Part shown: positions 12,468-63,802 of the stretch, piece after piece | How positions within the stretch are numbered: position 1 is the first letter of the stretch | How the letters are laid out: each line of letters starts with the position of its first letter | From: Triatoma infestans | Lineage: Eukaryota; Arthropoda; Insecta; Hemiptera; Reduviidae | Assembly (NCBI GenBank): GCA_011037195.1 | Contig: JAAEAF010004290.1 | Coordinates: 1 to 64,000 of the forward strand | Reading direction: 5' to 3' | Length of the DNA stretch: 64,000 bases | Made by a program: the position numbers and the translations under genes | Notes under the pieces: generated by a model | Database searches by the model: none | Seen by the model: only the letters and a program-made list of their open reading frames with translations | Told to the model about the DNA's origin: nothing

Positions 12468-13925
12468 TTCCGTTTTTTATGTTGTTGCAAGAAACCAGAT
12501 TTTGATTTAATTAGTTCATGCTTAGATTTGTATCTTTATAGTAAACTTTCGATACTTTGTAAACAGCGCCATATACATAAAATTAATATAATGTATAGCC
12601 TAAAAACTCCAGGTTTAAGAAACGGTTTTTAACTGAATATTGTGAATTCCTCGGAGAAAATTTTGTGGGTGTTTAACATCAATTTTATTTTCAAGGGAAA
12701 TATTTTCAATACAGAATATTATTTTGTTCAATTAGTATAAACGGCTAAATATAAAATGGCTGACCTTGCATTTCCAACTAATTATCTTTTGCTTTCTTTT
12801 TCAACAATGAAATAAAAATTCTGAATTTCTTCTTATTAGCTCATATTAATAATTACTATATATTATATTTTAATTGTAAAATGATAAATATTATGTCAGA
12901 AATAATTTGATTTTTTGCATTTTTTTTTTATATGAAATTTTTTATTGCACAATTTGATAATTTATGAAATACTTACGAAAGGAAAATTAGTGTAATATTC
13001 TAAACTGTTTTTAATCAAAGAAATAATTAGCTATAAATAATTTAACCAATCGCATTGTAGAAGAAGAAGTTGTCAAAAGTGGGCATGGCCAATATGATGA
13101 TTTTAAATTTCTGATTGGCTTTTAACATACACCTCCTCATTTCACATCTTCTATTTTGCACTGTGATTGGTTAATTATTTATAGCTAATTATTTCTATGA
13201 AAAATCTAGTTTAGAATTTTTCTACTAATTTTCCCTTTCGTAGGTATTTTATAAATTATCAAATTATCAAAAAATGCAAAAAAAATCAAGTTATTTCAAA
13301 CATAATATATATACTAATAATTTTAATGAGAGCTATAAAGAAAAAAAATTGATAATTTTCATTCCATTATTGAAAAAGAAAGCGAAAGAGAATTAGACAG
13401 AAATGCAAGGTCCGCCATTTTGTATTTGGCCGTTTATACTAATGGAACAAAATAAAATTGATGTTAAACACAAAATTTCACAAAATTTTCCCAAATGAAT
13501 TTGTATTATTCAATTAAAAATCTTTTTTAGTCCTGGAGTTTTTTAGCTATTCATTATTTATTGTCCTTAATTTTATGTTGATGATGCAGTCTACAAATTA
13601 TTGAAAGAATACTATAACGATAGATCTACGCATGAGCTAAATTCAAGCAAAATCTAGTTTCAGAGACATTTTCCGTGGTAGCTTGTTTCATGTTGTGGTC
13701 ATCGACCGGTTTCAGGCGTTCGCCCATCTTCAGGATGCGTTTTTCAGACAGTGTGACAACACAGACTGAAAAACGCATTCTGAAAATGGGCGAACGCCCG
13801 AAACCGGTCGATGACCAAAAAATGAAGCAGACTACCACGGAAAATCTTTCTGATGCTTTCCAGCTCTGCGGAACCAACCACCACAACAAAATTTAGTTTC
13901 TCACACAACGTAAAAAAAATGAAAA
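12468..13925. mobile_element. Long palindromic (foldback-like) element
   Basis: Two arms of roughly 600 bp are inverted copies around a centre near 13105. Paired blocks include: caagaaaccagattttg (12495-12511) with its complement at 13889-13905; aaactccaggttta (12604) with 13530; the catcaattttatttt block (12678) with 13450; taaacggctaaatataaaatgg (12738) with 13410; aattagctataaata (13027) with 13175. The right arm is split by the ribozyme unit 13662-13886. No transposase is encoded, and arms this long suggest a foldback element or an inverted duplication. Ends and target duplication are not resolved. Confidence 0.75.
13662..13886. mobile_element. Inverted-arm hammerhead unit A (PLE-like)
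   Basis: Flanked by caaaatctagtttc (13648-13661) and caaaatttagtttc (13887-13900), a 14-bp target-site duplication with one mismatch. The left arm carries the ribozyme-like core in reverse complement (13700-13738), the right arm in forward orientation (13774-13812). Only a very short spacer separates the arms, so this is a compact copy. The right tail reads ctttccagctctgcgg then aaccaaccaccacaac, shared by the other units. The forward core is mutated (CTGAAAA). Confidence 0.8.
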
Positions 13926-14480
13926 AACCGTTCAGTGAAAAATGCATTTCCGGTTTACTAGTTTTATTAAAACTCGGAATTTCGGCAATCTACATATTTC
14001 TACTTAATTTTGTTAGATGGTTAAGTATCATCACTTTAGAGGAAAACATCAACATCAATCCCTCCCTCAAAAGCCCGGTTAAATAACTTTACCCGAAGAT
14101 GTGTTTCAAATAATAGTTGTAAATCATTATATATGTAGTTTACATACTTAGTTTACAACAACATATTTAATTCTAATTAATCTTATTTGGGTAATAGAAT
14201 TGTGTAATGAACTGAAGTAGCACTTCAGTAGCGAAACCTAACCCCAGCCGTTCCCCGAAAGTGCCCTTAAATGAATTTTTCCAAAAGAAATGTTTCAAAT
14301 AAATGTTGTACATCATCGTATGTATAGCTGAATGACATAAGTTTAAAGAAAGAAAATCATTGGTAGAATTTCTGAGAAAATCGCAAAAAAGTGGAAAAAA
14401 AAACTCTTTAGTAAGATTTCTTCTGGGAAGGTAAACTTCTGGTTGAGGAATTTGTAAGTTTTGACACATAACTTACTTTC
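13926..14480 (+). repeat. Unclassified dispersed repeat, copy 2, with flanking AT-rich DNA
   Basis: At 14260-14480 are the blocks described at 7110-7340: gttccccgaaagtgcc, aaatgtttcaaataaatgtt, taagtttaaagaaag, gagaaaatcgcaaaaaa and ggttgaggaattt. A further atgtgtttcaaataat block lies at 14098-14114, so the unit may be partly tandem. 14481-15060 shows nothing recognisable. Confidence 0.5.
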
Positions 14481-15060
14481 ACAGATACTTTTTATTTTGA
14501 CTTTTTATTTTGTTCTTAGAAATGGATATTTCCCGTGCAAACTCAATATCGAAAGTTTGGCAGGATTGCAATATTACCACTTACTTGGTGATCATATACT
14601 ACTACCTACTGGAGTGTAGCTGCCTCCATTGCAACCTATAAATGTATTTGTTATGTGTAGAGGCACAAAGGCTTGGACCTTCATGGTATTTACTGAACTT
14701 CATCACTTACAGTTTCTCATCTCAGTTTCATATCTTTCAGAAATCTGACGTGAGATATTCAAGCGACTTTTTCTTTACTACAATTATTACAATTGTAATC
14801 GCGACAAATTTTATTTAATCATTAAATTTTACACAGAAGTCATTTAACATAAATGTAGAGAGATGAGGTATATATTGGTCAGCATGGTTGACAGGTAGAA
14901 ATAGAATGCCTTCACATTATAATCTAGAAGACAGGATCAAAACATTGCAGAAATTCAAATGATATTTGCAATATATTGTCACAGATTCCTCTGTACATCC
15001 TAAAATACATTTATCCAATCCCAATATACATTTATTTATTATATTATAATAAAATTGATA

Positions 15061-15441
15061 GTGTAATGGGTATTCGAATCATTATAGATTTATGGGATCC
15101 GAAGAGCGAAGTAGCAGACATTAAATGAATGAAACTTAGTTGCTCCCCATCTAGGCCAGGCTATGGAGGGAGTATTCGATTCATATATATGTATATATAT
15201 AAAGCGACAGCAGAACAGTCAGAAAAGTTTACAACTGCACATCAGTCAGCAACCTATCTGCTATCTTCTTAATCAGCCAGTCTGTCTCTTTATATTTCTC
15301 TCGCTACCTAACTTCTATTTTACTGTAAAGTACTTGAAATTTGTATGTTGTATTCATTATACGGTGTTCAGCATATCATCTAGTTTATTTCTCTAAAATC
15401 CATTCCCTCTAATTCACTCTCTCCTTGTCACACTCATTATA
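15061..15441 (+). repeat. Probable solo LTR, copy 1
   Basis: About 380 bp similar over its whole length to 49487-49880. It starts with taatggg..ttcgaatc..aggatcc, has a TATA-like box (tatatatataaag, 15190-15203), and then the shared stretch agtcagcaacctatct, agccagtctgtctctttata, ctctcgctacctaact and ttcagc..atctagttt. A TATA box followed by a transcribed leader, and two dispersed copies without internal coding sequence, fit solo LTRs. Exact termini and target duplications were not resolved, so another repeat class is possible. Confidence 0.55.
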
Positions 15442-16460
15442 GAAAGATAGAAGGCATACGCGATAGTCGCAACCGCTTAGGACCCTGTGCTCTGACTAAT
15501 AAACAATCAATGAAGTTATGATACCAACAGAAAGTTGTAATAATTATAATAAATACTATTTTATCTATGTTTCAAAAACTATATCGCCAATTTTGTCAAT
15601 TTCAAGATATTTAATCACTTATAGTTCATATAAAAGTTGTGTTAATTTTTTTTTTTTTTTTTTAAATAATTTTAACTTACGATGTTCGTAAAAATTAATA
15701 ACTTAGATTTTCGAAACCAAAGAATGAAATCTTTTCTTCTTTCGTGATTGTTTTCAATTCCATCAAATGCACATGAAGAAATCTGGACCTTTATTCCAAA
15801 TTTTGAGTATCAAGGAAATATTTCACCCAAATTTGTTTAATGTTTACTTACGATCCAGCCCTAAGCCTGATATCAAGAGTTGTTACTAGTAAAATGAATT
15901 TTTTATTATGAATTTTTGGGGAATTTCATTTATTAAATCACATCAAAATAATATTGTATATTTTCTTGCAGTTTTTTTTCTTTTGTGATCTTATCGTAAA
16001 AATCTTGTAACATTGCAGTATAACAGAGCTCAGTAATGACGTAACTTTTCTCAAGAGGACTAAATTTTGTCCCAAGTGTTTTCTGTTAATCTTTATTTGG
16101 ACAGAATGGTGTTTTGATAATTACTGTTTTAACATTTGAAAGGTAGTAATTTAAAAATTAATTTACCTATATACTTTCTACTAAACAACTTTATATATTA
16201 CATAAAACCTTTCTCTAATATAGATAAAAGTAGAGATAGACATTTGTGTGACTTAATTTGTTGCTACTTATAATTGCTACTGTAACCCACAACATCGAAC
16301 CGAAAATGTTTTATTATGGTGCGTTAATTTTATACTTTCATAAGTCTGATTAATAATAATTATTATTATATTGATAATAATATCTTTAATCATTAAGAAA
16401 CATAAATAATATAACTAAGAAAAGTATTTTTTTAAATTTTTAAATTAACAATTTAAATAG
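15442..16460. other. AT-rich spacer
   Basis: No gene recognised. A T run lies at 15645-15663. The stretch 16205-16275 (ctctaatatagataaaagtagagat...tgtgacttaatttgttgctac) resembles the spacer between the arms of unit B about 380 bp downstream. Confidence 0.5.
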
Positions 16461-16847
16461 ATCAGAGACATTTTCCATGGTAGCCTGCTTCATTTTGTGG
16501 TAATCGATCAGTTTCGGGCGTTCGCCCATTTTCAGGATGAGCTTGTCAGACAGTGTGATAACATAGAGTAAATTCAATTTATTCACTCTAATATAGATAT
16601 AATACATTTATAGATAAAAGTAGAGATGGAAATTAATGTGACTTATTTTATTGTTACTTCATTAAGTTGAGTTGAGTTGAGTGTATAAACTGAATTTGCT
16701 CTGTGCAAGTCTGTGTTATCACACTGTCTGACAAACGCACACTGAAGATGGGCGTACGCCTGAAACCGGTCGATGATCACAAAATGAAGCAGGCTAGCAC
16801 GGAAAATGTCTCTGATGCTTTCCAGCTCTGCAGAACCAACCACCACA
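16461..16847. mobile_element. Inverted-arm hammerhead unit B (PLE-like)
   Basis: The exact 13-bp direct repeat acaatttaaatag lies at 16448-16460 and 16848-16860. The reverse-complement core is at 16502-16540 and the forward core at 16737-16776. The forward core has CTGAAGA, helix II GGGC..GCCT, GAAA and ACCGGTC followed by GATG. The spacer between arms (about 16575-16665) resembles flanking DNA at 16205-16275. The right tail ctttccagctctgc then aaccaaccaccacaac matches unit A. No protein is encoded. Confidence 0.85.
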
Positions 16848-16860
16848 ACAATTTAAATAG

Positions 16861-17505
16861 GTATTCATTTTTATAGGGCTCCTACGTTAAACAGCTGTGC
16901 AGGGCCCAGCGATATCTATCTGCAGCCCTGGATAGATTTATATGGTTAATCGAACTTTAAACAAAATTGATGTAGCAGTTTTTAAGGAAAATTTCAAAAT
17001 CTTAGAAACTTCTTTTGTAAAGTCGCACTTCAGGTTAACAGATTTTCTTCCACTTTAGAATTCTAACAATTATAGTGAGTTTCTTCCTCTGTATGGATGT
17101 TAGGGATTTTATTGAAATGAATTTTATTGTACGCTTTTCGGTCCTTGAAAATCTTGATCATTAAGATGTTTGAAACTAATATATGCATATCAAACATTTC
17201 TCCTTCTTTTCCGTACAATCGTATCTGTAGCTACTCCGCATGATTACAGACAATCTGTTCGTCTTTCTTTATCACATATGGGATATAGGAGTAATTTCTC
17301 CTTTTATGTAGCTGTTGCCTTCTTGACTAACAAGGCCGTTTCAACCTCTTCAAAGAACAGTTTTTTGCTTGCCGGTAATGAGCTGCTTTTTGGTATACCC
17401 AACGCATGTATCTATTTGTCCACGAATGCCTGGCTTCAAGAGATACTAATACCATTCTCAATCGCCTTATCGGTAGAAATTCTGTAGTGCCCTGTTCTTT
17501 GTAGT
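16861..17505. other. Unassigned DNA with a weak minus-strand coding relic
   Basis: The minus strand around 17200-17480 has fragments such as HALGIPKSSSLPASKKLFFEE, interrupted by stops. They loosely recall the DNA-binding part of pogo-type transposases, but too weakly to call. A plus-strand frame 17170-17487 shows no family features. Confidence 0.3.
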
Positions 17506-17517
17506 GTACTAAGACTT

Positions 17518-17822
17518 CTTGTGGTTGGGTCCGCTGTGCTAGAAAGCATCAAAAATACTTTCCGTGATAGCCTGATTCTTTTCGCTTTCATCGACCGGTG
17601 TCAGACGTTCACGCCTGTCATCAAGATGTTTTACCAAAATGGTGTGATAACGTAGACTTGTACAGAGCAAATTTTGTTTATAATGTGTCTAAGCTAAATT
17701 TGCTCTGTGCCAATCTATGATCTCACACTTTTTCGAAAAATATCCTGATAATGGGCGAATGTCCGAAACAGGTCGATGACCACGAAAACTGTGGTAGCAG
17801 GCTATCACGGAAAATATCTCTG
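17518..17822. mobile_element. Inverted-arm hammerhead unit C (PLE-like)
   Basis: The 12-bp direct repeat gtactaagactt lies at 17506-17517 and 17823-17834. Orientation is opposite to unit A: the tail (ttgtggttgggtccgc) is at the left. Cores are at 17589-17629 (reverse) and 17744-17782 (forward: CTGATAA, GGGC/GTCC, GAAACAGGTC then GATG). The mutated CTGATAA suggests decay. It is inserted in the gypsy integrase fragment at its downstream end. Confidence 0.8.
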
Positions 17823-17834
17823 GTACTAAGACTT

Positions 17835-18470
17835 GCTGAAGAACTTCAGCTTTGTGCATTAACTGGAATTTGCTGCTGTTAGCTGCTTCTTAAATATGCG
17901 CAAGACATTTCTGCCAACCCACTAGAACGAGAGTAATGCAGAATAATTGCGATATCAGAGATATTTTCCGTGATAGCCTGTTTCTTTTTGTGGTGATCGA
18001 CCGGTTGCGGGCGTTCACCCATCATCAGGATACTTTTTGTTTGTGGATTAGTTTAAATTCATTCAAATTCTTCCTACCAAGTGTGCCAATCAATCTATAA
18101 CACACAAGATCTTTATAATTATTTTAGGAAACTGCGTCAAAATTTCCAATTTTAAAGTTTCATAACGCTCTGCGGAACCAACCACAACCACAATTAATTG
18201 CGATATGCTTGTTCTAGTTTTTTTTTTTTTTCTAAAATCTTGGAATGCAGCTACTTTGAATTGTGGCAATTTGTCTGTTATAATGTGCTTCGGAAGCCCA
18301 AACCGGGTTAAAGCTACATCGTTTGAGGTTTTTTTTTTAGATTTCATTAGTATTCCTTCAAGCCACTTGCAATATACGTGAATTATCATTAACCAATATA
18401 TCCCTGCAAGCGGTCTGGCAGAATGAATTGAAGATTTAGAACTACTGCCTTGCACATCTCTGCATATCAC
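17835..18470 (-). pseudogene. Ty3/gypsy integrase fragment, split by unit D
   Basis: On the minus strand 18207-18470 reads through the first half of the integrase core: PLAGIYWLMIIHVYCKWLE (about 18350-18415) and RFGLPKHIITDKLPQF (about 18255-18305), the latter containing the second catalytic Asp. The expected N of the usual SDNGPQF motif is altered. After the unit at 17956-18195 and one copy of its target duplication, the protein resumes near 17835-17945 with a SSGLAEM-like stretch covering the catalytic Glu region. No other pol domain or LTR was found next to it. Confidence 0.75.
17956..18195. mobile_element. Inverted-arm hammerhead unit D (PLE-like)
   Basis: The exact 11-bp direct repeat aattgcgatat lies at 17945-17955 and 18196-18206. 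The left head is cagagatattttccg, and the reverse-complement core is at 17996-18032 (helix II GGGT/GCCC, with CTGATGA). The right arm is degraded and keeps only the tail gctctgcggaaccaacc. Inserted into the integrase coding sequence of the surrounding gypsy fragment. Confidence 0.8.
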
Positions 18471-19289: not shown

Positions 19290-19410
19290 AACATCATGAA
19301 TTCCTCAGAACCAGAAAAATATTACAAATAATAGTGATAGGTTTATACCTGTGAAGTTAGCATTCCAAGTTAAAAAAAAAATCAGTTTTAATGATGCATC
19401 TGGATAACCA
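19290..19410 (+). repeat. Unclassified dispersed repeat, copy 3 (fragment)
   Basis: Carries ttcctcagaacc, attacaaataatagtgata and gttagcattccaagtt, in the same order as copies at 7110 and 47290. It is cut by the RTE-like insertion at 19411; its last 13 bp (atctggataacca) form the left target-site duplication. Confidence 0.5.
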
Positions 19411-20451
19411 ATGATGAGACTTGGAATTCCCTCCAAATTAATAAGACTTGTCCATGCGACCATGGCTGACACTAACAGTAGTGTCAAGATACAAAAAGAC
19501 CTGTCAAACAAATTCAAATGCGATCAAGGCTTAAGACAGGGAGCCTCCCTTTCATGCACTCTGGGTTTGGACCTGAACCTTAACCTGGGTTTGGAAACAA
19601 TAATTAGAGATGCCAGAATTGAAACCACAGGCACAATCTTCAATAAGAGCGTGCAAATCATAGCGTATGCCGATGACATTTGTATAATTGGAAGGTCTTC
19701 AGCGGTTGTAGAAGAAACCTTTATCTCCTTAGACCGGGCAGCAAGAAACATGGGGCTGGCAGTAAATGAGAATAAGACCTTACAACGGATATGTAAAACT
19801 CATGCATTCAGGTCAACGATTACAACTTTGAAACGTTCGCGTTTTTAAATATCTGGGATCGATGATAACGGCGGATAATGATGTAAAACAGGAGGTAAAC
19901 CAGTGGCTCATGAACGCCAATAAATGCTACTATTGGCTTAGGGGTACATGAAAAGCCGTAATTTATCCAGTACCACAAAATGTGCTCTGTACAAAGTTCT
20001 AATACGCCCTGTTCTGACGTATGGAGCTGAAGCATGGACCATGACCAAAGCGACCAAGCAAAAGCTACTCGTCTTTAAAAGAAGGATTTTAAGAAAGATA
20101 TTTGGTCCAGTCAAGGAAAATGAACAATGGAGAATACGTCAAAACGAGGAATTGGTAAGGTTGTATTCGGAAGTGGATGTTGTTAAATATATCCACTTGG
20201 CAAGACTGCGATGGACAGGCCACGTTGTTAGGATGGAAGAAACTGCCATCCCCAAAAGAGTGCTGTTCGGTGAACCGGGAGGGTAGGCAGAAAATAAGAT
20301 GGCTGGATCAGGTCGCGAATGATGCAAGACAGCTGAACGTCCTGAATCGGTGGTGGATCGTGGCTAAGGATAGAGAACCATGGCGTAGGATTCTTGAGTA
20401 ACCCAGTAATGGGTTGTAGCGCCAAGGAGTAAGTAAGTAAGTAGTAAGTAT
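19411..20451 (+). mobile_element. 5'-truncated RTE-like LINE with target-site duplication
   Basis: The exact 13-bp repeat atctggataacca lies at 19398-19410 and 20452-20464, and the 3' end is a short TAAG tandem tail (about 20428-20450). The first frame (19411-19848) is the reverse transcriptase palm: CDQGLRQGASLSC, then the catalytic IIAYADDICIIGRS (about 19657-19698) and LAVNENKT. The second (19948-20286) is the thumb and post-RT region (LIRPVLTYGAEAWTM, LARLRWTGHVVRMEE). The third (about 20276-20401) carries RQKIRWLDQVANDARQL and DREPWRRILE. Frameshifts near 19810, 19945 and 20280 separate them. YADD is intact. RTE-like is the best family call. Confidence 0.88.
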
Positions 20452-21064: not shown

Positions 21065-21316
21065 CAGAGACATTTTCCGTGGTACCCTGCTTCATTTTGT
21101 GGTCATCGACTGGTTTCGGGCGTTCGCCCGCCCATCTTCAGGATGCGCCCAACTGAACTCTATTTGTAAACTGAATTTGACTGTATAAACTGAATTTGCT
21201 CTGTGCAAGTCTGTGATATCACACTGTCTGACAAACGCATCCTGAAGATGGGCGAACGCCCGAAACCGGTCGAGAACCACAAAATGAAGCAGTCGATACC
21301 ATGGAAAATGTCTCTG
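21065..21316. mobile_element. Inverted-arm hammerhead unit E (PLE-like)
   Basis: The left arm starts cagagacattttccg; the reverse-complement core is near 21106-21146 with a duplicated 'cgcc'. The forward core is at 21238-21274: CATC, CTGAAGA, GGGC/GCCC, GAAA, ACCGGTC, then GAGA. The core is intact, but helix I pairing is reduced. Unlike other units the gctctgcgg tail is absent. The inverted symmetry continues about 15 bp outward (acaattgcattcat at 21051-21064 against its complement at 21317-21331), so no direct target duplication is visible. Confidence 0.75.
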
Positions 21317-21835: not shown

Positions 21836-23249
21836 TTACTTACTTACTTACTTAGTCGGAGACCTCTTCATACCCTAGGGTGTCGAGGTTTGCAGAAGGA
21901 GCTCCATCTTTCCCTATCTCTGGCTAAGTTTTTGGCCTCTTCCCATCTGACCCCTCTTTTTATTATGACCTCTCGGAGGTTATCCTCCCAGGAAATTCTC
22001 TTTCTTCCACGGGGCCTTCTACCAGTCATTCGCGTTTCGCATGCTTTCTTCGGGTACCTCTCGTCACGCAACCTACACACATGTCCGAACCATCGTAGCT
22101 GACCTCTCTCAATAACTTGAGATACTGGTTCACTTTTAAGTGTGGTTCTAATGGTGGTGTTGCGGATTCTGTCTCTTCTGGTTCTTCCTGCCACTTTTCT
22201 CAAATACCTCATTTCCGCGGCTTGGAGTTGGCTACGTTTCGCTTCTCTTAGAGCCCATGATTCACTTCCATATGTCAGCGTTGGAAGGAAGGTCGAACGG
22301 AAGGCTGCCATTTTTGTGTCCTTTGTTACTTCCTTTTTACTGAGAATATTTCTGTTTATGGCGTAGAATAGTCTTCCTGCGGCGTCTACTCTTGCAGTGA
22401 TTTCATTTTTTGACTTTGCCGCTCTTACTCAGCATCACGCACAGATATTTAAACACAGACACTTGTTCTATCCGTTTTCCGTCTATTTCTATTTGTACTT
22501 GTTCTTCACTCCTAGACACTGTCATAAATTTAGTTTTGGAGGTGTTAATTATCATCTTTCTCTTTTTGAGCTTTTCTGTCAGTATATTGATGTTCTCTTG
22601 TAGTTTTTCTCCATTGTCCGCTATGAGAACCAGCTCGTCTGCGAAAGCTAGGATTGAGAAACTTGTCGGCCTTAATTTCCAGAACCCTAATCTCGTTTCT
22701 CTGGCACTTCTTTTAAAGTCTTTTAGTACTTCATCCATGAGGATGATGAAGTAGAGTGGGCTCCCTATATCCCCCTGTCGGACCCCCATCCGTGTGATGA
22801 ATTCCGCCGATTGCTGATTGGAGGTTCTGACATAGTTTCTGCAAGTTTTATAGAACCTTTTTATTCTGCATATTATAGCTTCGCTAACCTTTTTGTTTCT
22901 GAGCGCTGTCCATATCATTTCCCAGGATACTCTGTCGAAAGCCTTTTCTAGATCTATGAAACATAGGTAGACGGATTTTCCGTATTCTATGGATTTCTCA
23001 CATATTTGTCGTAACATAAAGATGTGGTCTTGTGTACTTCGCCCTGGGCGGAAGCCACTCTGTTCCTCTTCTAGCTGATGTTCCACCTCTTTACGTAATC
23101 TATTTTCCAATACACGAGAATAGACCTTTCCAGGTACACTCAACAGTGAGATCCCTCTGTGATTTGCGCAATTTCTTTCGTCGCCTTTCTTAAATATGGG
23201 GACAATGATAGAAACTTCCCAGTCATCAGGTATTTGTTTATTATTCCAT
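21836..23249 (-). mobile_element. 5'-truncated RTE-like LINE inserted in a transposon end
   Basis: On the minus strand, 22403-23143 (extending back to about 23247) encodes most of a reverse transcriptase: GISLLSVPGKVYSRVLENRL, then EEEQSGFRPGRSTQDHIF, a YLCFIDLEKAFDRVSW block with a catalytic Asp, MGVRQGDIGSPLYF, and the active-site segment ILAFADELVLIAD (about 22635-22672). The last reads FADE rather than FADD. After a frameshift, 21868-22311 gives the C-terminus (FLPTLTYGSESWAL; LRWFGHVCRLRDERYPK). The 3' tail is a CTTA/TAAG tandem at 21836-21854. Flanks gctacagaac (21826-21835) and gctagaac (23250-23257) are a slightly eroded target-site duplication. Confidence 0.88.
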
Positions 23250-23578
23250 GCTAGAACACGTACCTAAAATAGTGCCGTGCAATTCTGAACACCCTGAATA
23301 TAAATAAAACGTTGACATAATATTTCGGGGATTAAATTAAAAGAAGTAATATCATTAAAAAATCACGCAGGGATCACATTAGTTGCAATTAAACAATTTA
23401 GAGACCTAAGTTTTAAACTACAAACTCTCCAAGTCTTTTTCTTTCCTTTTATTTAATTCTTTATTTGTTATTGGCTTTGTGTATATTGCAATATATATGG
23501 TTTTTATTTTCAGGCATTGGCCGGATGACAATTATTATCTGTTCGTAATTTATTTTATATATATCGCTCATCCGGTGG

Positions 23579-29599: not shown

Positions 29600-29702
29600 T
29601 ACGTTAGAATAAACCTGTACATTTAACCTCATAAAATTGCTGATAAACTGCTGAACCCATCCTTTCCTATTTCCTACATAATATCCTAATTTTTCCCATA
29701 GT
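29600..29702 (+). repeat. Gypsy-associated LTR piece, copy 1
   Basis: Carries attacgttagaataaacctg then aacctcataaaattgctg, ataaactgctgaacccatcc and ttcctacataatatcc. It matches 32075-32165 in the same orientation and 32283-32420 in reverse. It lies just upstream of integrase sequence, so it is probably an LTR fragment left by an internal deletion. Confidence 0.6.
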
Positions 29703-45144: not shown

Positions 45145-45320
45145 TGGGTCCGTAATACTGGATAATATCCGGTATTTTATCCGTCGTAGCATGCATATTG
45201 GTTTTGTTCCTGACCGGTTTCGGATATTCATCCATCGTCAGAGCAAATTCACCAAGTTCGTGTAGAGTGTCCACTTGAACGAAATGTTTCTGTAGAAATG
45301 TTGTTGGTTGTATCTACTTA
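45145..45320 (-). mobile_element. Second-family hammerhead unit K (PLE-like)
   Basis: On the minus strand: CTGACGA, then helix II GGAT..ATCC, GAAA, ACCGGTC (45212-45241). The left tail tggctgggtccgtaatactg, the block ccggtattttatccgtcgta and gcatattggttttgttcc align position by position with the tail and arm of family-1 units (tgggtccgc..; ctttccgtgatagcc). It is thus a diverged relative. The inner flank (gaacgaaatgtttctg, gttggttgtatctac) recurs as a palindrome at 46775-46872. Confidence 0.65.
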
Positions 45321-45329
45321 TTAAGATAA

Positions 45330-45545
45330 AATATCGATTCTACAAAATGGATTTACCATGAGCCCAAAGTATCGTAAAACCACAATCCTATTAAGGAATC
45401 CAACCAGATGCCTGAGAGAGGTCCGTGAAAGACGCAACAATATCTCACTAATAGCCCTAACTGGATCCCCACGATATCTTAGACTAGCGACTGACCCATA
45501 AAGCTTATCCATGCGGTCGAATGCTGTGAAGCTGTCCATGCCGGC
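45330..45545 (-). repeat. Dispersed block 'SFTAF', copy 2
   Basis: The minus-strand frame 45321-45539 (72 codons) begins MDSFTAFDRMDKLYGS and contains RYRGDPVRAISEIL and TSLRHLVGFL. About 75% similar at the DNA level (rough visual estimate) to 46985-47190 on the same strand and more distantly to 26888-27060. I do not recognise the protein family. Retention of an open frame in two copies argues for former coding, but weakly. Confidence 0.5.
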
Positions 45546-46249
45546 AAGCTTGACAGATATATATGTTCAGACCAGTCAGACATTCAACAGCAGGCTTGGA
45601 ACCAATGAAGAGCAGAAAGCCTACATTCTCATTCCCTAAGATTCCCTAAGACTAGAAGTAGGTATATACTAAAAAGAAGAAAGTTCTCCCAATGTTCTAG
45701 AACATTTTAATACCAAATTGGAAATGAAGAATATGAACTCAGCGCCTTCAATGCAGCTTGACTGTCCGAGCAGACCCAAACATGTTTTAAATTGGTGTCT
45801 ACATACCTAATCATCCAAAATACAAAAAAGAATTGTATAAATCTCAGTCTAGAAAACAGTGGTTTATTAATAATAATGCTACTTTATTTGAAAATAATGC
45901 ATAAACAGAAAAATAGATAAACTTTACTAAGTGCATAAGCCATGGCTAATGCACTATCTAGTTTGGGTATTTCAGAGTTTGGGTATTAAATACATGGTAA
46001 AAAACAAATTGTTCCTCAGAAAACCCAAAAGTGATACCCAAAAGTGATAACCAAAAAATAAGCGTTATAGCTATAAAATATACAAACAAAAAACTAAAAA
46101 AATTACTAAACTAAAAAGAGATAGTGAATTATAAATCAATAATAATTAAACTCCTTAATGAGGCTGAACCTATACCTGGCTTGCCTGGCATAAATAATCA
46201 GTTTGGTGCAAATATAATATATATTACATAAAGAATCTATTACGAATTG
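45546..46249. other. AT-rich spacer
   Basis: No gene recognised. A short local duplication attccctaagattccctaag is visible near 45638-45660. Confidence 0.5.
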
Positions 46250-46710
46250 AACAGAAACAAATTTTCGCACTCAAGCATCTCAATCGAAATTCGGATAAGA
46301 TAGGTAGGGCACTCACGTAGAAAATGGTCCTCTCTGGCATTTATATTGCACTTTGCATATTTTTCCTTGTATTCTACTTTATCAATCCATGGTACATAAT
46401 TGAAATAAATTAATTCATTTCTCAGTTTAGAGGCACCTTTAGGTCTGATAGTTTTAGTTGGGTATTAGAGTCAACATGAAATATAGTCTTGTACAAAACG
46501 CTCAGAGTTCATAGCACAATTCACAGACTCTTTGCAAAAGCTCCGAAAATTGAGATTCCCATCTCGATACAAACTATCGAGAGAGAAATCAGAAGTCAAG
46601 GAGGAGTTTTGGGCTAAGTTAGACCGTTCTTTGAAACAAAGTATATTTTTGCTTCCAATTTCGCAGGCTACAATTTTGGTAAAGCTATTATAGATCGCAG
46701 ACAAGATCTT
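46250..46710 (-). pseudogene. LINE ORF2 C-terminal fragment
   Basis: The minus-strand frame 46471-46704 runs into further minus-strand frames containing GASKLRNELIYFNYVPW (about 46390-46440) and KCNINAREDHFLRECPTYL (about 46290-46350). The C...C..(E)DHFL..CP pattern matches the cysteine-histidine tail after the RT in several LINE clades. The first cysteine pair is altered. RT sequence is absent. Confidence 0.5.
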
Positions 46711-46774
46711 TAAACAAACAGTGGTTCATTTCCAGGACATTTCTTTGGCTTGATATAGACAGCAGCTACTAAGA

Positions 46775-46872
46775 CTCACTTCAACGAAATGTTTCTGAAG
46801 ACTCACCCTTGTTGGTTGTATCATAATAAGTAGATACAACCAACAAGTGTGAGTCAACAGAAATATTTCGTT
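46775..46872. repeat. Short palindrome, ~48-bp arms
   Basis: cacttcaacgaaatgtttct..ttgttggttgtatc is followed, after about 10 bp, by its reverse complement gatacaaccaacaag..atttcgttgaagtg. The same arm sequence occurs singly at 45272-45318 inside unit K, so this is probably the inner hairpin of a second-family unit. Confidence 0.8.
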
Positions 46873-46980
46873 GAAGTGAACACTCTACACGAACTTGGTG
46901 AATTTGCTCTGAAGATGGATGAATATCCGAAACCGGTCAGGAACAAAACCAATATGCATGCTACGGCGGATAAAATACCG
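46873..46980 (+). mobile_element. Second-family hammerhead arm L (PLE-like)
   Basis: The forward core at 46909-46938 has CTGAAGA, GGAT..ATCC, GAAA and ACCGGTC. It is followed by aggaacaaaaccaatatgca and ggcggataaaataccg, matching unit K in reverse. With the palindrome at 46775-46872 this may be one unit whose left arm is lost. It joins directly to block copy 3. Confidence 0.65.
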
Positions 46981-46984
46981 AATC

Positions 46985-47190
46985 TACAAAATAGATTTGC
47001 CATGAGCCCAAAGTATCGATAAACCACAATGCCCAGTAAGGAATCCAACCAGATGCCAGAGAGAGGTCCGTAAAAGAAACAACACATCTCACTAATAGCC
47101 CTAACTGCATCCCCATAATATCTTAGACCAGCGAATGATCCATTAATCTTATCCATAGGGTTGAATGTTGTGAAGCTGTTTATGTCAACT
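46985..47190 (-). repeat. Dispersed block 'SFTAF', copy 3
   Basis: The minus-strand frame 46854-47156 covers a diverged version of copy 2: LRYYGDAVRAISEM and YRYFGLMANLFCR. Both copies share the junction tctacaaaat(g/a)gattt immediately next to the ribozyme-family sequence, although the ribozyme arm points the opposite way in the two places. Confidence 0.5.
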
Positions 47191-49880: not shown

Positions 49881-50719
49881 TATGATATTATTCGGGAATT
49901 TAAAAAAAAATCGGCTGCTAAAATGCTAAGAATCTCTGTAGGTGTGGTCTGGGAATCTTGTTTATTACATACTATCTGTTAAGGTTTCCGCAAATCGTTC
50001 AAAACATTCGCCGTGAAGCCTTAGGAATTGCGAGCTGGTTACTGTCAAAAGGGAATGGACTGTATTGGAAAATAAGGGCCAACCAACCATTAGTCACAGA
50101 ATTACATTTCATTTTGTTAAATTTCAATAATCAATACATATAATAGACTTTTCGAAAGATAGAAATGAATTTTTTTTCATCGGTACAAAGGTATATATGA
50201 CGTCATTACCTTTTTTTCCGGATCCAATTCGAAGTACCTAATCAATTCAATATTTTAATGTTGGTACCTGTGGCTCGTGCCGGCCGGCATATAATGAAGT
50301 TATATTTGCCTGTAGAATGAGCTGGAAGAGTATAAAGCGACGGGGCGCTTGGTAGCGGCTGGGCGCTAAATGGGCGTCCTGGTAAACGTACTGATGACGG
50401 AAATTTCTCTGATGGGCGGTAAGACCGCAGAGAGATCGAAACTAATCAAATAATGATAACGAATTTTTCCAGCTGAGCTGCCGATAGACAAAAAATAGAT
50501 AAGTAATCTAGTACAACTTGGAAAAGACTGACTGTAGCTCCGCTAAACTTCAAACGCCCAAGGTCCTCTTGTTTGATGTAGTACACAGCAGTAGTGGGGA
50601 TTGTTTATATTGCATCAAACATGATATTTACAAATTATTATTACTCTAAATTAATCGAGGCTTTAACAATGTCATTAAACGATTTCAGCATTTGATCCGC
50701 CGTCACTGGGTAAGCACTA

Positions 50720-50905
50720 CACAACTATCTTGAATTCTTCATATCCAATTTGATGCGAATGAGAGCTGCCACAACTCCAGAATTTAAACTTTTTTTGTTT
50801 TTGTTTTGATATCCATTAAGCATAGAGAAAATTCTCTCTACACCAGCATTCGATTGAGGCAACGATAAAAAAATTAATTCCACTTTTCCAATATGCCTAA
50901 ACATT
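50720..50905 (-). pseudogene. hAT transposase C-terminal (hATC) remnant, left arm
   Basis: Minus-strand equivalent of 55268-55470. The DNA corresponding to QSNAGV..IFSM is visible as complement at about 50835-50860, with local frameshifts. It covers only the C-terminal dimerisation domain; the catalytic region is absent. Confidence 0.65.
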
Positions 50906-51388
50906 AACCTACTCCATGCGTCTATGTTGCAATATCACTTACTCATGCTCATAATCAAACAGGGATGTCCAAGCAGAAAAAAAAATTGAATTTAAAAAAA
51001 TTAATTTGTGCAGTTAAAGTACAGTGAATATTCCCTAAGTTTTAATATTTTCAAAGAATAATCCCTCCATCCTTTTAATACCTTAAATCTTCCTACAATA
51101 GGGGATTTTCCCCTACACCTGGCAACACTGATTAAGTGTTTCTAACGGCAATTAATACTGCAGCAAATTACAATAGAAAATCGACTTTTAATGTACTGTT
51201 TTCTATTTAATTCTTAAGTTTAGCTGCATTTTCTATTAATTTTATGCATAATTTTACAAAAAAATAAAATAACGATCTGGTAGCCAGTCTTTTTATTGTT
51301 TCGGCAATTCCTTTGTTCACTTTTGACAAAAAAAAGAAAAATACCTACTCTCTAAATTTGTGTTGAATTCACAAAAGTATATTAAAGT

Positions 51389-51735
51389 CTCAGAGATAAT
51401 TTTCCATGATATCCGGTTTCTATTCGTGATTATCGAACGGTTGTTTTTGGGCCGTTCACCCATCGTCAGGATGTTTTGTCATAAAACAGTGTGATAACAT
51501 TAGGCTTGCACAAAGCAGATTTAGTTTATACATTGGGTTCTTAAAGTGCTTTGTAAAAAACCTAATCTACAACTAAATTTGCTCTGTGCAATGCTTATGT
51601 TATTACATTATTTTTCCCAAAACATCCTGATGATGAACGCCCGAAACCTGTCGATAAAACCAAGAAAAGACACAGGCTATCACGGGATCTCTGATACTTT
51701 CCAGCTCTGTGGACCCAATCTCATCAACTAAATTT
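51389..51735. mobile_element. Inverted-arm hammerhead unit H (PLE-like, left arm of the large duplication)
   Basis: The reverse core (about 51430-51474) has a damaged helix II; the forward core (51625-51655) has CATC, CTGATGA, a shortened helix II, GAAACCTGTC and GATA. Inner arms share the ttaaagtgctttgtaaaa block with unit G. The right tail gctctgtggacccaatctca ends near 51728. It is duplicated as unit I, so it was inserted before the large inverted duplication formed. Confidence 0.75.
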
Positions 51736-51787
51736 AAGTTATTTGTAACTAAATTAAAGGTTGTTTTAATCAACAAAAAATGATAAT

Positions 51788-53085
51788 TCAATCAAAATTG
51801 ATAAATAATTCATTGGCAATGTTAATAAAAGCCAAGTGTCTGCCAAATCTTTTTCTCCCCTCCTCTATGTTGGTACCAGCTGATTTATCAGTAGGAATAG
51901 GCTTTAGATTAAATGATTTTTTTTTCCCCCGTTTTGAGCGTCTAAATTTCGAGACCTGAACCTGTGAGGGATCTGGTAACGCAGGAAACTCTTCCTCAGT
52001 GAGCCCCTCAAACCTGTTACTTTTGGCGATTTCTAAAAAGGAGTCTCCAACAAATGTTGAGTCATACATTGTTTTTCCTTAGCTTTTTTTTTATTTTCCT
52101 CTATGTATTTTGGGCATTAAAGCATCTGTTGCAAGGTGATTCCCACGGCAGTTAATGCACTCTATTTTCTCCATATTACACTGATCTGCGTGGTGCAGCC
52201 CCGTGCATGCTGCACCTGTCTGTCCTCTACACTGGATGCTTGAATGTCCATATCGGAGACAATTCATACATGGTCTGCTATGAGGTACATAAAGCTCTAC
52301 TCTGAACCTCGTCCCATACAAAGTGACATGCCTCGGAAGTTTCTGACTATCGAAAGTCAAGAAACAAGTTTCAAGAGGCCTATTTTCGGTTCTTTTGTAT
52401 ACTCTTTCTACCTTTAACACCGAAATTTCACTTCGAAAGTGGTGCAAATTTCCTCCTCTGAAAAGGATACTTCCATCCCTCTAATGACGCCCTTCGAATA
52501 GATACGACATTCTAGAACATAAGCCCTCTAGTTTCGCTTTTCCAAACCCCTGTGATTAATAAAATAGTTAGCCGCTTCAGATGTTTCAATTATAATTTTC
52601 ATTCGGTTCTTTCCCCACAGCTCTAATATCCACTATATCATTTGAATAGCTGTTGTCCTCTTTATAAATCCATTTACCGAATGTGACTCGATGGATGTTG
52701 CCCACATTACCGTCCCGGCCTTCTACGTGTAGAATGAAGGGACCTTTATCCGTAGGCTTATAGAAACCAGTCGAGTTCACACCACCTGTTTCAATAGATA
52801 CCTCATTGCTAATTTTATTATTATCACTGTTATTAATAGTATCCTGAATATTCGCTATCCAATCCTTGCTTTTCACCACTTTCGCCCGCGCATATTCAGA
52901 CGCTTATTCTCACGAGCCAGCGATCGCTTGTGGCCTTTCCAGGATTTATCATTATTATTATTATTAACCTCATTACTAGTGTTACTATCCTTAATAATAT
53001 CTTCCGAATACTTATCTTTTATGTCAGCCGGTGGTCCTCTATCATGAGGTAGGCCTCCATTGCGCTCTTCCATCACCAATCCTGC
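51788..53085 (-). pseudogene. LINE ORF1 (zinc-knuckle, gag-like), frameshifted
   Basis: Four minus-strand frames in order: 52873-53079 (polar, N-rich start), 52586-52879 (FILHVEGRDGNVGNIHRVTF), 52091-52447 (RPCMNCLRYGHSSIQCRG, an intact C-x2-C-x4-H-x4-C knuckle, then CINCRGNHLATDA, a degraded knuckle) and 51788-52069 (basic, FRRSKRGKKK). This matches ORF1 nucleic-acid-binding proteins of Jockey-like LINEs. Frameshifts or stops at about 52880, 52560 and 52080 separate the parts. No ORF2 follows; unit H lies next. Confidence 0.75.
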
Positions 53086-53089
53086 TGTA

Positions 53090-53608
53090 TTGTGTTGTTC
53101 TGTTTTCTCCTTTTTTTTTTTTTTTTTTTTTTGTTTATTTTCCCCAATAATCTAAAATTTTCTTCTCTATCAGTTCATTACCCCCCCCCCGCCCCACCAG
53201 CACAAACTTACTAAAATTAGTAATTACTACTTTTCTAGACCCCATAAAATTACAATTTTTTGGGAGCCCTCTATATTATACTATTTTAACTTGTTACCCT
53301 ATAAACGCGAATGATTTATCAAAGTACTGCCATTGTTAATCAAAATAAAAAAAAATAAAATAATATTATAATTGCAGTTAGAGCAAAATGTAGTTGCAAA
53401 TATAAATTATAAAGCTTTATTCGACTAAAATAGTGTAGTTGAAACTCGTAACCAACTGGAATTGAGAAAATGGAGTTAAAATTTGTAAATTTGTATGCAG
53501 ATATACCTAGGAAAAAAGAACCATTAAACGATATTCGGTAACCCAAAAATAGTTGTAAATAAATATTTAAACTTAGTGAATTGAACTTTTCTGATTTTCA
53601 TTATTGAC
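53090..53608. other. Spacer of the large inverted duplication, non-coding part
   Basis: Contains a T run at 53108-53132, a C run near 53180-53190, and AT-rich DNA. This unpaired part lies upstream of the ORF1 start on the minus strand, so it may be LINE 5' UTR or older flank. Confidence 0.4.
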
Positions 53609-54391
53609 TCAATGTATGACTCAACTTTTGTTGGAGACTCCTTTTTAGCGAAACTAGAGGGCTTATTTTCTAGAATGTCGTATCTATTCGAAGGGCGTCA
53701 TTAGAGGGATGGAAGTATCCTTTGGAAATTTGCACCACCTTCGAAGTGAAATTTCGGTGATAAAGGTAGAAAGAGTAAACAAAAGAACCGAAAATAGGCC
53801 TCTTGAAACTTGTTTCTTAACTTTCGATAGTCAGAAACTTCCGAGGCATGTCACTTTGTATGGGACGAGGTTCAGAGTAGAGCTTTATGTACCTCATAGC
53901 AGACCATGTATGAATTGTCTCCGATATGGACATTCAAGCATCCAATGTAGAGGACAGACAGGTGCAGTAAATGCACGGGGCTGCACCACGCAGATCAGTG
54001 TAATATGGAGAAAATAGAGTGCATTAACTGCCGTGGGAATCACCTTGCAACAGATGCTTTAATGCCCAAAATACATAGAGGAAAATAAAGAAAAGCTAAG
54101 GAAAAAGCAATGTAGACTCAACTTTTGTTGGAGACTCCTTTTTAGAAATCGCCAAAAGTAACAGGTTTGAGGGGCTCACTGAGGAAGAGTATCCTGCGTT
54201 ACCAGGTCCCTCACAGGTTCAGGTCTCGAAATTTAGACGCTCAAAACGGGGGCAAAAAAAAATCATTTAATCTAAAGCCTATTCCTACTGATAAATCAGC
54301 TGGTACCAACATAGCGGAGGAGAGAAAAAGATTTGGCAGACACTTGGCTTTTATTAACTTTGCCAATGAATTATTTATCAATTTTGATTGA
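53609..54391 (+). pseudogene. LINE ORF1 C-terminal half, right-arm copy
   Basis: Inverted copy of 51788-52535 on the plus strand. Frame 53709-54017 keeps the knuckle RPCMNCLRYGHSSIQCRG; frame 54167-54391 keeps the basic tail (GGKKKSFNLKPIPTDKS). The first 40 bp (53609-53648) duplicate the segment at 54117-54155 (gactcaacttttgttggaga..), out of order relative to the left arm. Confidence 0.8.
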
Positions 54392-54439
54392 ATTATCATT
54401 TTTTGTTGATTAAAACAACCTTTAATTTAGTTACAAATA

Positions 54440-54790
54440 ACTTAAATTTAGTTGATGAAATTGGGTCCACAGAGCTGGAAAGTATCAGAGATCCCGTGAT
54501 AGCCTGTGTCTTTTCTTGATTTTATCGACAGATTTCGGGCGTTCATCATCAGGATGTTTTGTCAAAAATAATGTAATAACATAAGCATTGCACAGAGCAA
54601 ATTTAGATGTAGATTAGGTTTTTTACAAAGCACTTTAAGAATCCAATGTATAAACTAAATCTACTTTGTACAAGCCTAATGTTATCACACTGTTTTATGA
54701 CAAAACATCCTGATGATGGGTGAACGGCCAAAAAGAAAAACCGGTCGATGATCACGAATAGAAACCGGATATCATGGAAAATTATCTCTG
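54440..54790. mobile_element. Inverted-arm hammerhead unit I (PLE-like, right arm of the large duplication)
   Basis: Reverse complement of unit H. The forward core at 54707-54755 has CATC, CTGATGA and GGGT/GGCC, then an insertion of A-rich bases before AAACCGGTC and GATG. The reverse core (54526-54560) lacks part of helix II. The tail is at the left (gggtccacagagctgg). Confidence 0.75.
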
Positions 54791-55267
54791 AGACTTTAAT
54801 ATACTTTTGTGATTTCAACACAAATTTAGAGAGTAGGTATTTTTCTTTTTTTTTTGTAAAAAGTGAACAAAAGAATTGCCGAAACAATAAAAAAAGACTG
54901 GCTACCAGATCGTTATTTTATTTTTTTGTAAAATTATGCGTAAAATTAATAGAAAATGCAGCTAAACTTAAGAAATAAATAGAAAACAGTAAATTAAAAG
55001 TTGATTTTTATCGTAATTTGTTGCAGTATCAATTGTCGTTAAAAACATTTAATCAGTGTTGCCAGGTGTAGGGGAAAATCCTTATTGTAGGGATATTTAA
55101 GGTACTAAAGGGACTAAGGGATTATTCTTTGAAAATGATTAAAACTTAGGGAATATTCATAGTACTTTAACTGCACCAATTAATTTTTTTAAATTCAATT
55201 TTTTTTTCTGCTTGGACATCCCTGTTTGATTACGAGCATGCGTAAGTGATATTGCAACATAGACGCA

Positions 55268-55475
55268 TGAAGTGGGTCAATGTTTAGGCATATTGGAAAA
55301 GTGGGATTAATTTGTTTGTGGTTGCCACAATCGAATGCTGGTGTAGACAGAATTTTCTCCATGTTTAATGATATCAAAACAAAAACAAAAAAAAAGTTTA
55401 AATTCTGGAGTTGTGGCAGCTCTCATTCGCATCAAATTGTATATGAAGAATTCAAGAAAGTTGTGTAGTGCTTAC
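55268..55475 (+). pseudogene. hAT transposase C-terminal (hATC) remnant, right arm
   Basis: The plus-strand frame 55280-55468 reads HIGKVGLICLWLPQSNAGVD then RIFSMFNDIKTKTKK. The LPxSNAxVERxFS-like core, usually followed by N.IK(T/N)..R, is the hallmark of the hAT C-terminal dimerisation domain. It ends in a stop at 55468, followed 16 bp later by cagtgacggcgg, a CAGNG-type sequence. Confidence 0.7.
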
Positions 55476-56277
55476 CCAGTGACGGCGGATCAAATGCTGA
55501 AATCGTTTAATGACATTGTTAAAGCATCGATTAATTTAGAGTAATAATAATTTGTAAATATCATGTTTGATGTAATATAAACAGTCCCCACTACTGCTGT
55601 GTACTACATCAAACAAGAGGACTTTGGACGTTTGAAGTTTAGCGGAGCTACAAGTCAGTCTTGTCCAAGCTGTACTAGATTACTTATCTATTTTTTTGTC
55701 TATCGGCAGCTCAGCTGGACAAATTCTAGTATCATTATTTGATTAGTTTCGATCTCTCTGCGGTCTTACCGCCCATCAGAGAAATTTCCGTCATCAGTAC
55801 GTTTACCAGGACGCCCATTCAGCGCCCAGCCGCTACCAAGCGCCACGTCGCTTTATACTCTTCCATCTCATTCTACAGGCAAATATAACTTCATTATATG
55901 CCGGCCGACAAGAGCCATAGGTACCAACATTAAAATATTTAATTGATTAGGTACTTCGAATTGGATGCGGAAAAAAGCTAATGACGTCATATATACCTTT
56001 GTACTGATGATAAAAAATTCATTTCTATCTTTCGTAAAGTCTATTATATGTATTGATTATTGAAATTTAATAAAATGAAATGTGATTCTGTGACTAATGG
56101 TTGGTTGGCCCTTATTTTCCAATACAGTCCATTCCCTTTTGACAGTAACCAGCTCGCAATTCCTAAGGCTTCACGGCGAATGTTTTGAACTATTTGCGGA
56201 AACCTTAACAGATAGTATGTAATAAACAAGATTCCCAGACCACACCTACAGAGATTCTTAGCATTTTAGCAGCCGAT

Positions 56278-63249: not shown

Positions 63250-63339
63250 AATTAACATATTAGAAACGTGAGTTTCCTCTTATTTAATATAAAATAAATA
63301 AATAGTTACGTTTGGCCGTTGTTAGTAAAAAATATTTCG

Positions 63340-63560
63340 CTGGGGCCAAAAAATAAAAAAAACCTTTTTAGCCTCAAAAGTTAATTCGACGTTTCGGACA
63401 TCTTTGGTGCCTTTCCTCAGGAACTATTAAGAAAGGTTAGAAAGTTAAATTAATTAAAGAGAGATTTAATTCTCTATCCTTCCCTAATAGTTCCTGAGAA
63501 AGGCACCAAACGAAACGTCGAATTAACTTTTAAGAATAAAAAGTTTGTTTTTTTTCTTTG
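63340..63560. mobile_element. Third inverted hammerhead-like pair (PLE-like family 3)
   Basis: The reverse copy (63382-63425) reads, on the minus strand, TAGTTC, CTGAGGA, a loose GG..CC stem, GAAACGTC, GAATTA. The forward copy (63487-63533) has TAGTTC, CTGAGAA, GAAACGTC, GAATTA. TAGTTC and GAATTA pair over six positions (one G-T), a plausible helix I. The CTGA(N)GA..GAAACGTCG pattern is common in PLE terminal regions. The two copies flank about 60 bp of AT-rich DNA, and outer parts (ggccaaaaaa..; ..tttggcccc) also pair. Confidence 0.65.
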
Positions 63561-63686
63561 GCCCCAGCCTCAGAAAGCCTTTTTTGCTTATTTTTTTGTT
63601 TATATTATTTATTTAAAAACCCTTCATAATATTTCTAATGTTGACAATATTGAGGATTATTCTTTAAATAAAGTGTAAATAAATAA

Positions 63687-63802
63687 TCAGAGACATTTTC
63701 TGTGGTAGCCTGTTTCATTTTGTGGTCATCGACCGGTTTCGGGCGTTCGCCCATCTTCAGGATGCGTTTTTCAGACAGTGTGACAACACTGTAAATACAC
63801 AT
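63687..63802 (-). mobile_element. Single-arm hammerhead unit J (PLE-like)
   Basis: 116 bp bounded by the exact 12-bp repeat gtaaataaataa at 63675-63686 and 63803-63814. It holds one arm only. On the minus strand the core (63727-63764) is intact: CATC, CTGAAGA, GGGC..GCCC, GAAA, ACCGGTC, GATG. The inverted partner and gctctgcgg tail are absent. The cleanest ribozyme-like core in the window. Confidence 0.8.

Follow-up and report, generated by a model that had tools for sequence, protein, structure and literature searches.

Short head-to-head insertions in the Triatoma infestans genome as products of a Penelope-like element with hammerhead motifs in its terminal repeats

The stretch analysed here (hereafter the window) comprises 64,000 nucleotides of Triatoma infestans contig JAAEAF010004290.1, and all coordinates are window positions. 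It harbors a series of short units, designated A to J, which consist of one or two copies of a pseudo-long terminal repeat (pLTR) of a Penelope-like element (PLE) and, as a rule, of a tail at one end. Units A to I had been described in a first-pass annotation as a family of elements devoid of open reading frames (ORFs), with two obligatorily inverted hammerhead-like arms. The units and their arms are confirmed: the head sequence, CAGAGACATTTTCCG, has 11 matches in the window with up to two mismatches, versus 0.11 expected in shuffled sequences, and a profile built from 16 arms retrieved 18 arms with every E < 1e-22 (the same 16 and the two of unit I), as well as two further distant arms with E of 8e-7 and 8e-6. 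Where the window units have two arms, these are inverted relative to each other.

Unit A (13661-13887, plus strand) is made up of an inverted pLTR, a second pLTR and a 35-nt tail with no central filler, and lies between target-site duplications (TSDs) at 13649-13660 and 13888-13899, identical in 11 of 12 positions. Its left arm contains a match to the hammerhead core pattern (13704-13733, minus strand), and its right arm, tail included (13786-13887, plus strand), contains the ORF start MGERPKPVDDQKMKQTTTENLSDAFQLCGTNHHN; the matching peptide at the genomic locus L149 extends into a long PLE ORF. Unit B (16463-16849, plus strand; TSDs 16450-16462 and 16850-16862) has a 107-nt filler between its inverted pLTR and the pLTR with the tail, and 51 nt of this filler (16609-16659, plus strand) are 86% identical to the unit's own left flank at 16219-16269. 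Unit C (17518-17822, minus strand; TSDs 17506-17517 and 17823-17834, 12/12 identical) carries its tail on the left, unit D (17956-18191, plus strand; TSDs 17942-17955 and 18193-18206, 13/14) consists of a head arm and the tail without the right pLTR, and unit F (33266-33606, plus strand; TSDs 33253-33265 and 33607-33619, 10/13) again shows an inverted pLTR, a pLTR and the tail. Unit E (21065-21316, no strand assigned) comprises two inverted pLTRs with neither tail nor TSD, and the sequences on its two sides form an inverted repeat (score 16, versus 6 for direct repetition). Unit G (41271-41788, plus strand) is an old copy, the arms of which extend beyond the pLTR into a longer palindrome, with no clear TSD; unit H (51390-51728, plus strand) is an old copy with a weak TSD, and unit I (54451-54791, minus strand) is a copy of H. 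Unit J (63688-63789, minus strand) is a solo, 5'-truncated pLTR without a tail, flanked by direct repeats recognized by eye (63674-63686 and 63802-63814). Further hammerhead cores lie in the arms at 16742-16771, 21242-21271 and 33499-33528 on the plus strand and at 21108-21141 and 63731-63760 on the minus strand. The one-sided tail reported previously is valid overall, units C, D and E being the departures from the scheme.

The TSD scores of units A, B, C and D (12, 14, 10 and 12, respectively) are far above those of random pairs (P ≤ 0.002), and that of unit F (8, P 0.02) is less far above chance, so that the duplications claimed for these five units are upheld, though with less force for the last; units H, I and J score 8, and E and G score 6. 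Comparison of the arm divergence with the TSD divergence, the latter judged by eye, is too noisy to tell whether the arms differed at insertion. As to the number of insertions, H and I lie in the two arms of a single inverted duplication (49910-56277, no strand assigned; outermost arms 49910-50216 and 55971-56277) and hence represent one insertion that was duplicated, which leaves eight independent units rather than nine. The arms of this duplication are 88-98% complementary, and inside it, at 52091-52480, there is an ORF with cysteine-rich motifs, discerned by eye, that has no Pfam match.

The arms correspond to a pLTR, that is, to a 5' untranslated region together with the start of an ORF. 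In the hammerhead sense, an ATG begins with the last A of the CUGANGA motif, and its frame reads MGERPKPVDDHKMKQATTENVSDAFQLCGTNHHN through to the end of the tail, with copy-specific changes. In ORF coordinates the hammerhead cut falls at nucleotide 24; of the two ends, the inner one is at 67 and the outer one, in ACCAACCACCACAAC, at 102, and the 35-nt tail is equivalent to nucleotides 68-102. The units cannot, consequently, be called ORF-less, as every arm carries the start of the PLE ORF. A protein search with the padded 34-residue arm peptide gave no match. In a codon-position test of 16 window arms the mismatches numbered 37, 45 and 40 at positions 1, 2 and 3; there is no third-position excess and thus no coding constraint on the window copies after insertion, a result that speaks neither for nor against the ORF, which is settled by L149.

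The constituents of these units are abundant in the genome. The assembly searched (941,445,613 bases, 13,959 contigs) contains 21,767 exact matches to the head (10,830 + 10,937), 6,647 to the tail (3,316 + 3,331) and 11,725 to a 30-nt stretch of the hammerhead core (5,939 + 5,786), while reversed control sequences have 0 exact matches; the dispersed character of the family is confirmed. Upstream of the pLTR, several copies with a single pLTR have up to 1.2-1.4 kb in common, and this shared sequence encodes a GIY-YIG domain. Search with the endonuclease peptide yielded 150 scored matches at 95-100% identity out of 4,552 first-look candidates, and the longest open frames at these 150 matches, measured from stop to stop, are of 841 and 828 codons. 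The locus with 841 codons contains, in L149, a pLTR, the hammerhead and the ATG, and the ORF opens with the 34-residue peptide of the arms and extends beyond the tail; the next pLTR downstream at the same locus (L151) is in direct orientation. The same frame (L152) contains a reverse transcriptase domain (RVT_1, 32.2 bits versus the Pfam cut-off of 29.6). The C-terminal GIY-YIG domain, encoded by the sequence shared upstream of the single pLTRs, also passes its Pfam cut-off (23.6 bits versus 22.6, a longer piece of the same protein scoring 22.2, just below the cut-off). In a comparison within the genome, the protein proved similar to another family combining RVT_1 and GIY-YIG. Among 72 exact-tail sites, three of which are one element, only L109 continues into the ORF (97% identity over 100 nt), and a Pfam GIY-YIG search retrieved 30 loci of other GIY-YIG sequences, with this pLTR present only at L058, as a neighboring copy. 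The window units are short insertions of an endonuclease-bearing PLE that is present as pLTR-ORF-pLTR in the same genome.

The partner PLE with matching termini, for which the first-pass annotation had suggested a search, has thereby been found, and the idea of a separate undescribed family is to be dropped, given a PLE with these pLTRs and tail in the genome and, according to the part of the source consulted, inverted pLTRs already known for Penelope (PMC3846280). The same finding bears on a foldback DNA transposon or miniature inverted-repeat transposable element (MITE), which would share the terminal inverted arms and the TSDs. The length of the TSDs varies, the two ends are unequal, one of them having the tail, solo arms with TSDs occur, and the same termini belong to a PLE with reverse transcriptase and GIY-YIG domains; no DNA transposon with these termini was seen. 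We consider this explanation refuted by the PLE ORF and give it practically no credit.

The arm sequences hold the core CUGANGA, a 4-bp stem II, GAAA, CCGGU and C. A pattern composed after the arms had been inspected gave nine matches in the window, of which six are in the arms, two in a distant second family and one elsewhere; in 40 randomised sequences the mean was 0.275 and the maximum 2. In 18 aligned arms, 87.9% of the cells of stems I and II are paired and 12 cells are changed on both sides, a value reached by 0 of 500 shuffles, and pairing falls to 27-40% when the partner is shifted by one to three columns. Two weaker measures of covariation are not decisive, namely the six double-change pairs (reached by 25/500 shuffles) and the 12 further pair types (101/500). 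The compensating changes in two stem II pairs and three stem I pairs are due to the second family. An Rfam search of the window returned no family at the gathering score, nor did any hammerhead family appear when E was relaxed to 5; PLE ribozymes are minimal variants without helix III, as stated in the portions consulted of PMC6155905 and PMC7761336. The pLTR thus carries a predicted minimal type I hammerhead overlapping the start codon, and in this respect the earlier description of the arms was right. Exact hammerhead patterns were also searched for in viral contigs, where nothing was found.

As for the second family, it is a distant PLE-like pLTR with the peptide MDEYPKPVRNKTNMHATTDKIP, present in inverted orientation at 45125-47184, each arm having a direct repeat of about 216 bp at its side. 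Its pLTRs lie at 45178-45263 (minus strand) and 46887-46970 (plus strand), with hammerheads at 45212-45241 (minus) and 46909-46938 (plus), and the region as a whole looks like a larger insertion or capture.

The layout of the insertions was surveyed genome-wide in three sets of loci, a TSD being called at a score of at least 8, for which the chance is 3.1%. The head-anchored set consisted of 57 consecutive distinct head places from the start of the assembly list (56 loci). Inverted head-to-head pairs make up 30 of these places, singles 24 and more complex arrangements 3. Exactly one tail was called in 29 of the 30 inverted places (the tail of the remaining one, L069, is damaged, as judged by eye), and 27 of them have a TSD. 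Of 29 tail-anchored discovery loci, nine of which are common to the head-anchored set, 18 are inverted and 11 single, with one tail in all 18 and a TSD in 17. The held-out tail-anchored set (38 usable of 40 loci) comprised 20 inverted, 13 single and 5 other arrangements; a second tail was found in none of the 20 and a TSD in 17. Altogether there are 68 inverted clusters, equal to 62 distinct elements, and in none do both arms have a tail; no isolated tail-to-tail pair was met among the surveyed clusters. Internal PLE sequence of at least 200 nt was present in 7/57 head-anchored places, within the short stretches fetched. Most sampled hairpins are flanked by TSDs of about 10-15 bp, have exactly one tail and possess an individual central junction. 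Inversion is not obligatory, contrary to what had been supposed, since single-pLTR copies with TSDs exist (4/24 head-anchored and 1/13 held-out singles). The share of inverted places, 30/57, is a lower bound, because very short second arms were missed; at L081 such an arm is visible by eye. The two refuting conditions named in the first-pass annotation, namely these termini on a DNA transposon and a majority of copies with non-inverted arms, have a mixed outcome: no such transposon was seen, but little more than half of the head-anchored places were called inverted.

The central junctions bear on the manner in which the hairpins multiply. The 48 rows of the junction table, representing 47 different inverted insertions, contain 45 different combinations of arm lengths. 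Within an insertion, the lengths of the two arms are more than 3 nt apart in 38/47 cases, and at least 20 nt between the arms remain unaligned to the references in 23/47, though in unit G, and perhaps in other old copies, these nucleotides are diverged PLE sequence. In most pairs of similar length, one arm or both reach the initiator discussed below, that is, a natural end, and the filler lengths of these pairs differ. In some copies an arm extends into internal PLE sequence. Partly shared fillers occur in L096 and L003 and in L096 and L086. In the scheme envisaged by the first-pass annotation, the hairpins would be a non-autonomous family driven by the PLE, with transcription and copying of the hairpin itself and with functional inverted hammerheads; the very high copy number and the long hairpin structure would be in keeping with it. 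Such a replicating unit would give shared junctions, whereas the junctions and arm lengths mostly differ, some arms run into the interior of the PLE, and the similar-length pairs are largely those with an initiator-ended arm and unlike fillers; the hairpins seem to be made anew and not copied as hairpins, and we regard this alternative as very unlikely.

The same junctions are relevant to fold-back, or self-priming, of a single cDNA as the source of the second arm, which was proposed for the inverted Penelope repeats of rotifers and is favored in the part of PMC3846280 consulted. The head-to-head layout agrees with it, and so do unit A and the loci L004, L010, L021 and L034, in which no central filler is present. 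The unequal arms, the unaligned nucleotides between them and the absence of a tail on both arms in any inverted cluster disagree with it, as do L029 and L084, in which both arms separately end at the initiator with a G before it. We hold fold-back to be unlikely on these grounds.

Arms end most often about 170 nt away from the end of the tail (32/96 ends at 170-179 nt and 14/96 at 160-169 nt). The PLE sequence at this place is TCAGTGTG or TCAGTTAGTGTG, and many arms other than read-through ones start at the A of TCAGT, which resembles the arthropod initiator. Of 60 arms, 33 have G before the initiator A, 14 have C, which is the templated base, 9 have T and 4 have A, the share of G being far above the background of 16.5% (binomial p 1.2e-11); by set, G was found in 24/42 discovery, 6/14 held-out and 3/4 window arms. 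When only non-C bases are considered, G accounts for 33/46 at the initiator versus 15/40 at truncated ends (Fisher p 0.0014). One rule of base counting was used for all sets, in place of an automatic count that had missed arms (G in 5/11 held-out and 23/41 discovery arms); since the rule was devised after the result of that count was known, the held-out set is not fully blind. The rule also counts the probable read-through arms L028, L069, L009 and L093 as ends, which lowers the share of G. L007 and L012, being the same element as L006, were dropped from this count; L026 (no pLTR profile cluster) and L117 and L136 (no profile match) were also left out of the rows used; L012 was kept in the tail-anchored survey count and in the junction table, hence the 47 insertions in 48 rows. 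The extra G looks as if reverse transcription had reached a cap, and in the part consulted of a study of L1 an untemplated G was taken as a sign of a capped template (PMC6425141). Thus, the arm ends are likely to include a trace of the RNA cap.

The hammerhead cut site, on the other hand, is rare as an arm end: among 183 arms that extend to the 3' end of the pLTR, three start exactly there and one beside it, and two of these four are both arms of L116. This TSD-flanked locus consists of two pLTR stubs, at the cut site and one base off, which enclose a few hundred nucleotides of foreign sequence, and ribozyme-cleaved RNA may possibly have been its template. The scarcity of such ends is pertinent to animal non-LTR retrozymes (circular RNAs with type I hammerheads) mobilised by the PLE. 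Type I-like hammerheads in short repeats would suit them, and PLEs are named as proposed helpers of retrozymes in the part of PMC7761336 consulted. They should have boundaries at the cleavage site and be arranged as tandem repeats, yet 68 of 70 two-pLTR clusters are inverted (L103 and L134 have both matches on one strand). We find this origin highly improbable.

The best overall explanation, to which we assign a probability of about 0.85, is that these are pLTR-only PLE insertions, usually two head to head, produced by priming of both DNA ends on the PLE mRNA. In this process the PLE protein would make staggered cuts in both strands of AT-rich DNA (the 12 nt 3' of the tail have 76.7% A+T over 83 sites, ORF sites and repeats included). 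One DNA end would prime reverse transcription in the AC-rich site at ORF nucleotide 102, leaving the tail, and the other at nucleotide 67, leaving none; each cDNA would either stop early or reach the capped 5' end, some 70 nt ahead of the ATG, of a PLE mRNA of the ordinary kind, and the two cDNAs would be joined end to end, in some cases with a filler. As synthesis would start near the 5' end of the ORF, normal mRNA would yield only cDNA of pLTR length, and the copies bearing the ORF would require read-through RNA from tandem units. The hammerheads would belong to the PLE and need not act in the making of hairpins. Priming from both ends is suggested by the activity of the Anolis PLE enzyme, which cuts and extends both DNA strands in vitro (PMC11167929), taken together with the single tail, TSDs, unequal arms, fillers and cap-like ends observed here; Anolis ribozyme mutants, moreover, insert in vitro as well as normal RNA does (PMC11167929). 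Fold-back fits the unequal arms and the fillers less well than two-ended priming does. We further think it somewhat probable, with clearly less assurance than the general explanation, that the hairpins preserve, like fossils, the traces of target-primed reverse transcription from two ends, in which a pair of PLE enzymes would prime on both cut DNA strands, with the outer start on one and the inner start on the other, and each cDNA would read a capped, uncleaved PLE mRNA towards its 5' end.

Several observations weigh against this explanation. About half of the surveyed places were not called inverted, and most singles are without a TSD by the method used (20/24 head-anchored and 12/13 held-out). 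For the tail-anchored loci the test of the tail is partly built in, because they were chosen by a tail. The G signal of the held-out set is modest (G 6, C 6 and T 2 of 14, p 0.018), and internally truncated arm ends, too, are preceded by G somewhat often (15/50, one of these being N). The initiator is a putative one, recognized from sequence. Finally, for Anolis no difference between the strands in the start of reverse transcription was seen in vitro (PMC11167929), as opposed to the unequal ends of the hairpins here.

Other traces of PLEs and repeats were also encountered. On contig C39 two tails (L138 and L139) lie 3.2 kb apart on opposite strands, with the same 100 nt after each and an endonuclease match between them. 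Positions 5220-5507 of the window (plus strand) have a translated match to the family's GIY-YIG endonuclease (28% over 112 residues, E 8e-7) and are likely a remnant of another PLE, and three other RVT_1 fragments lie at 10740-11549, 19408-19845 and 22406-23263. At 32086-32377 there is a perfect 89-nt inverted repeat with 114 nt between its arms, and 74 nt that overlap the left arm recur at 29623-29696 with 95% identity.

If the proposed mechanism is true, no self-priming is involved in the origin of inverted Penelope repeats, the template end can form without the hammerhead, and the great number of pLTR-only copies follows directly from the start of reverse transcription near the 5' end of the ORF. 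PLE integration, the inverted terminal repeats and the role of the ribozyme, the last called a mystery in the consulted part of a review (PMC7761336), are the questions on which these insertions bear, and because the starts, fillers, TSDs and 5' ends of the template are readable in thousands of short records, counts can serve to test the competing models. To annotators they carry a warning: such hairpins look like MITEs or like a new family of ribozymes, yet they are fragments of a PLE.

Descriptions of this type of element, of inverted pLTRs with a tail and TSDs, and of hammerheads in PLEs already exist. New to us, against the portions of the literature consulted, are the abundance of hairpins made only of pLTRs, the consistency of the one-tail rule and the cap-like signature; we noticed no paper in our literature search on cap-derived ends of PLE copies and do not claim absence from print for any of these. 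Animal non-LTR retrozymes likewise have short repeats with type I hammerheads, but they form tandem repeats and circular RNA, and neither an inverted pLTR pair nor an ORF start in the ribozyme is described in the part of the source seen (PMC7229834). The Penelope elements of Adineta vaga (PMC3846280, consulted in part) have inverted head-to-head pLTRs, an optional 31-bp tail on one inverted pLTR, short TSDs (8-10 bp there) and, in some cases, foreign sequence between the pLTRs; in contrast to the elements considered here, they are low-copy and mainly ORF- or gene-bearing, and their inversion is ascribed to self-priming. Poseidon of Anolis carolinensis (PMC11167929) has GIY-YIG and reverse transcriptase in one ORF too, its hammerhead overlaps the ATG in the same way (the ORF begins inside it just after G8, with C3 and G8 preceding the start codon), the tail is likewise set by two starts of reverse transcription 30-40 nt apart, the outer one being AC-rich, and the targets are AT-rich. 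The Anolis ribozyme cuts 26 bp past the start codon versus 24 here, the outer start is at bp 111-118 of the ORF, in an AC-rich stem loop, versus 102 here, and the tail is of 30-40 versus 35 nt. What distinguishes T. infestans from this system are the thousands of exact head and tail matches and, among the loci sampled, the many pLTR-only inverted insertions with different start sites at each end.

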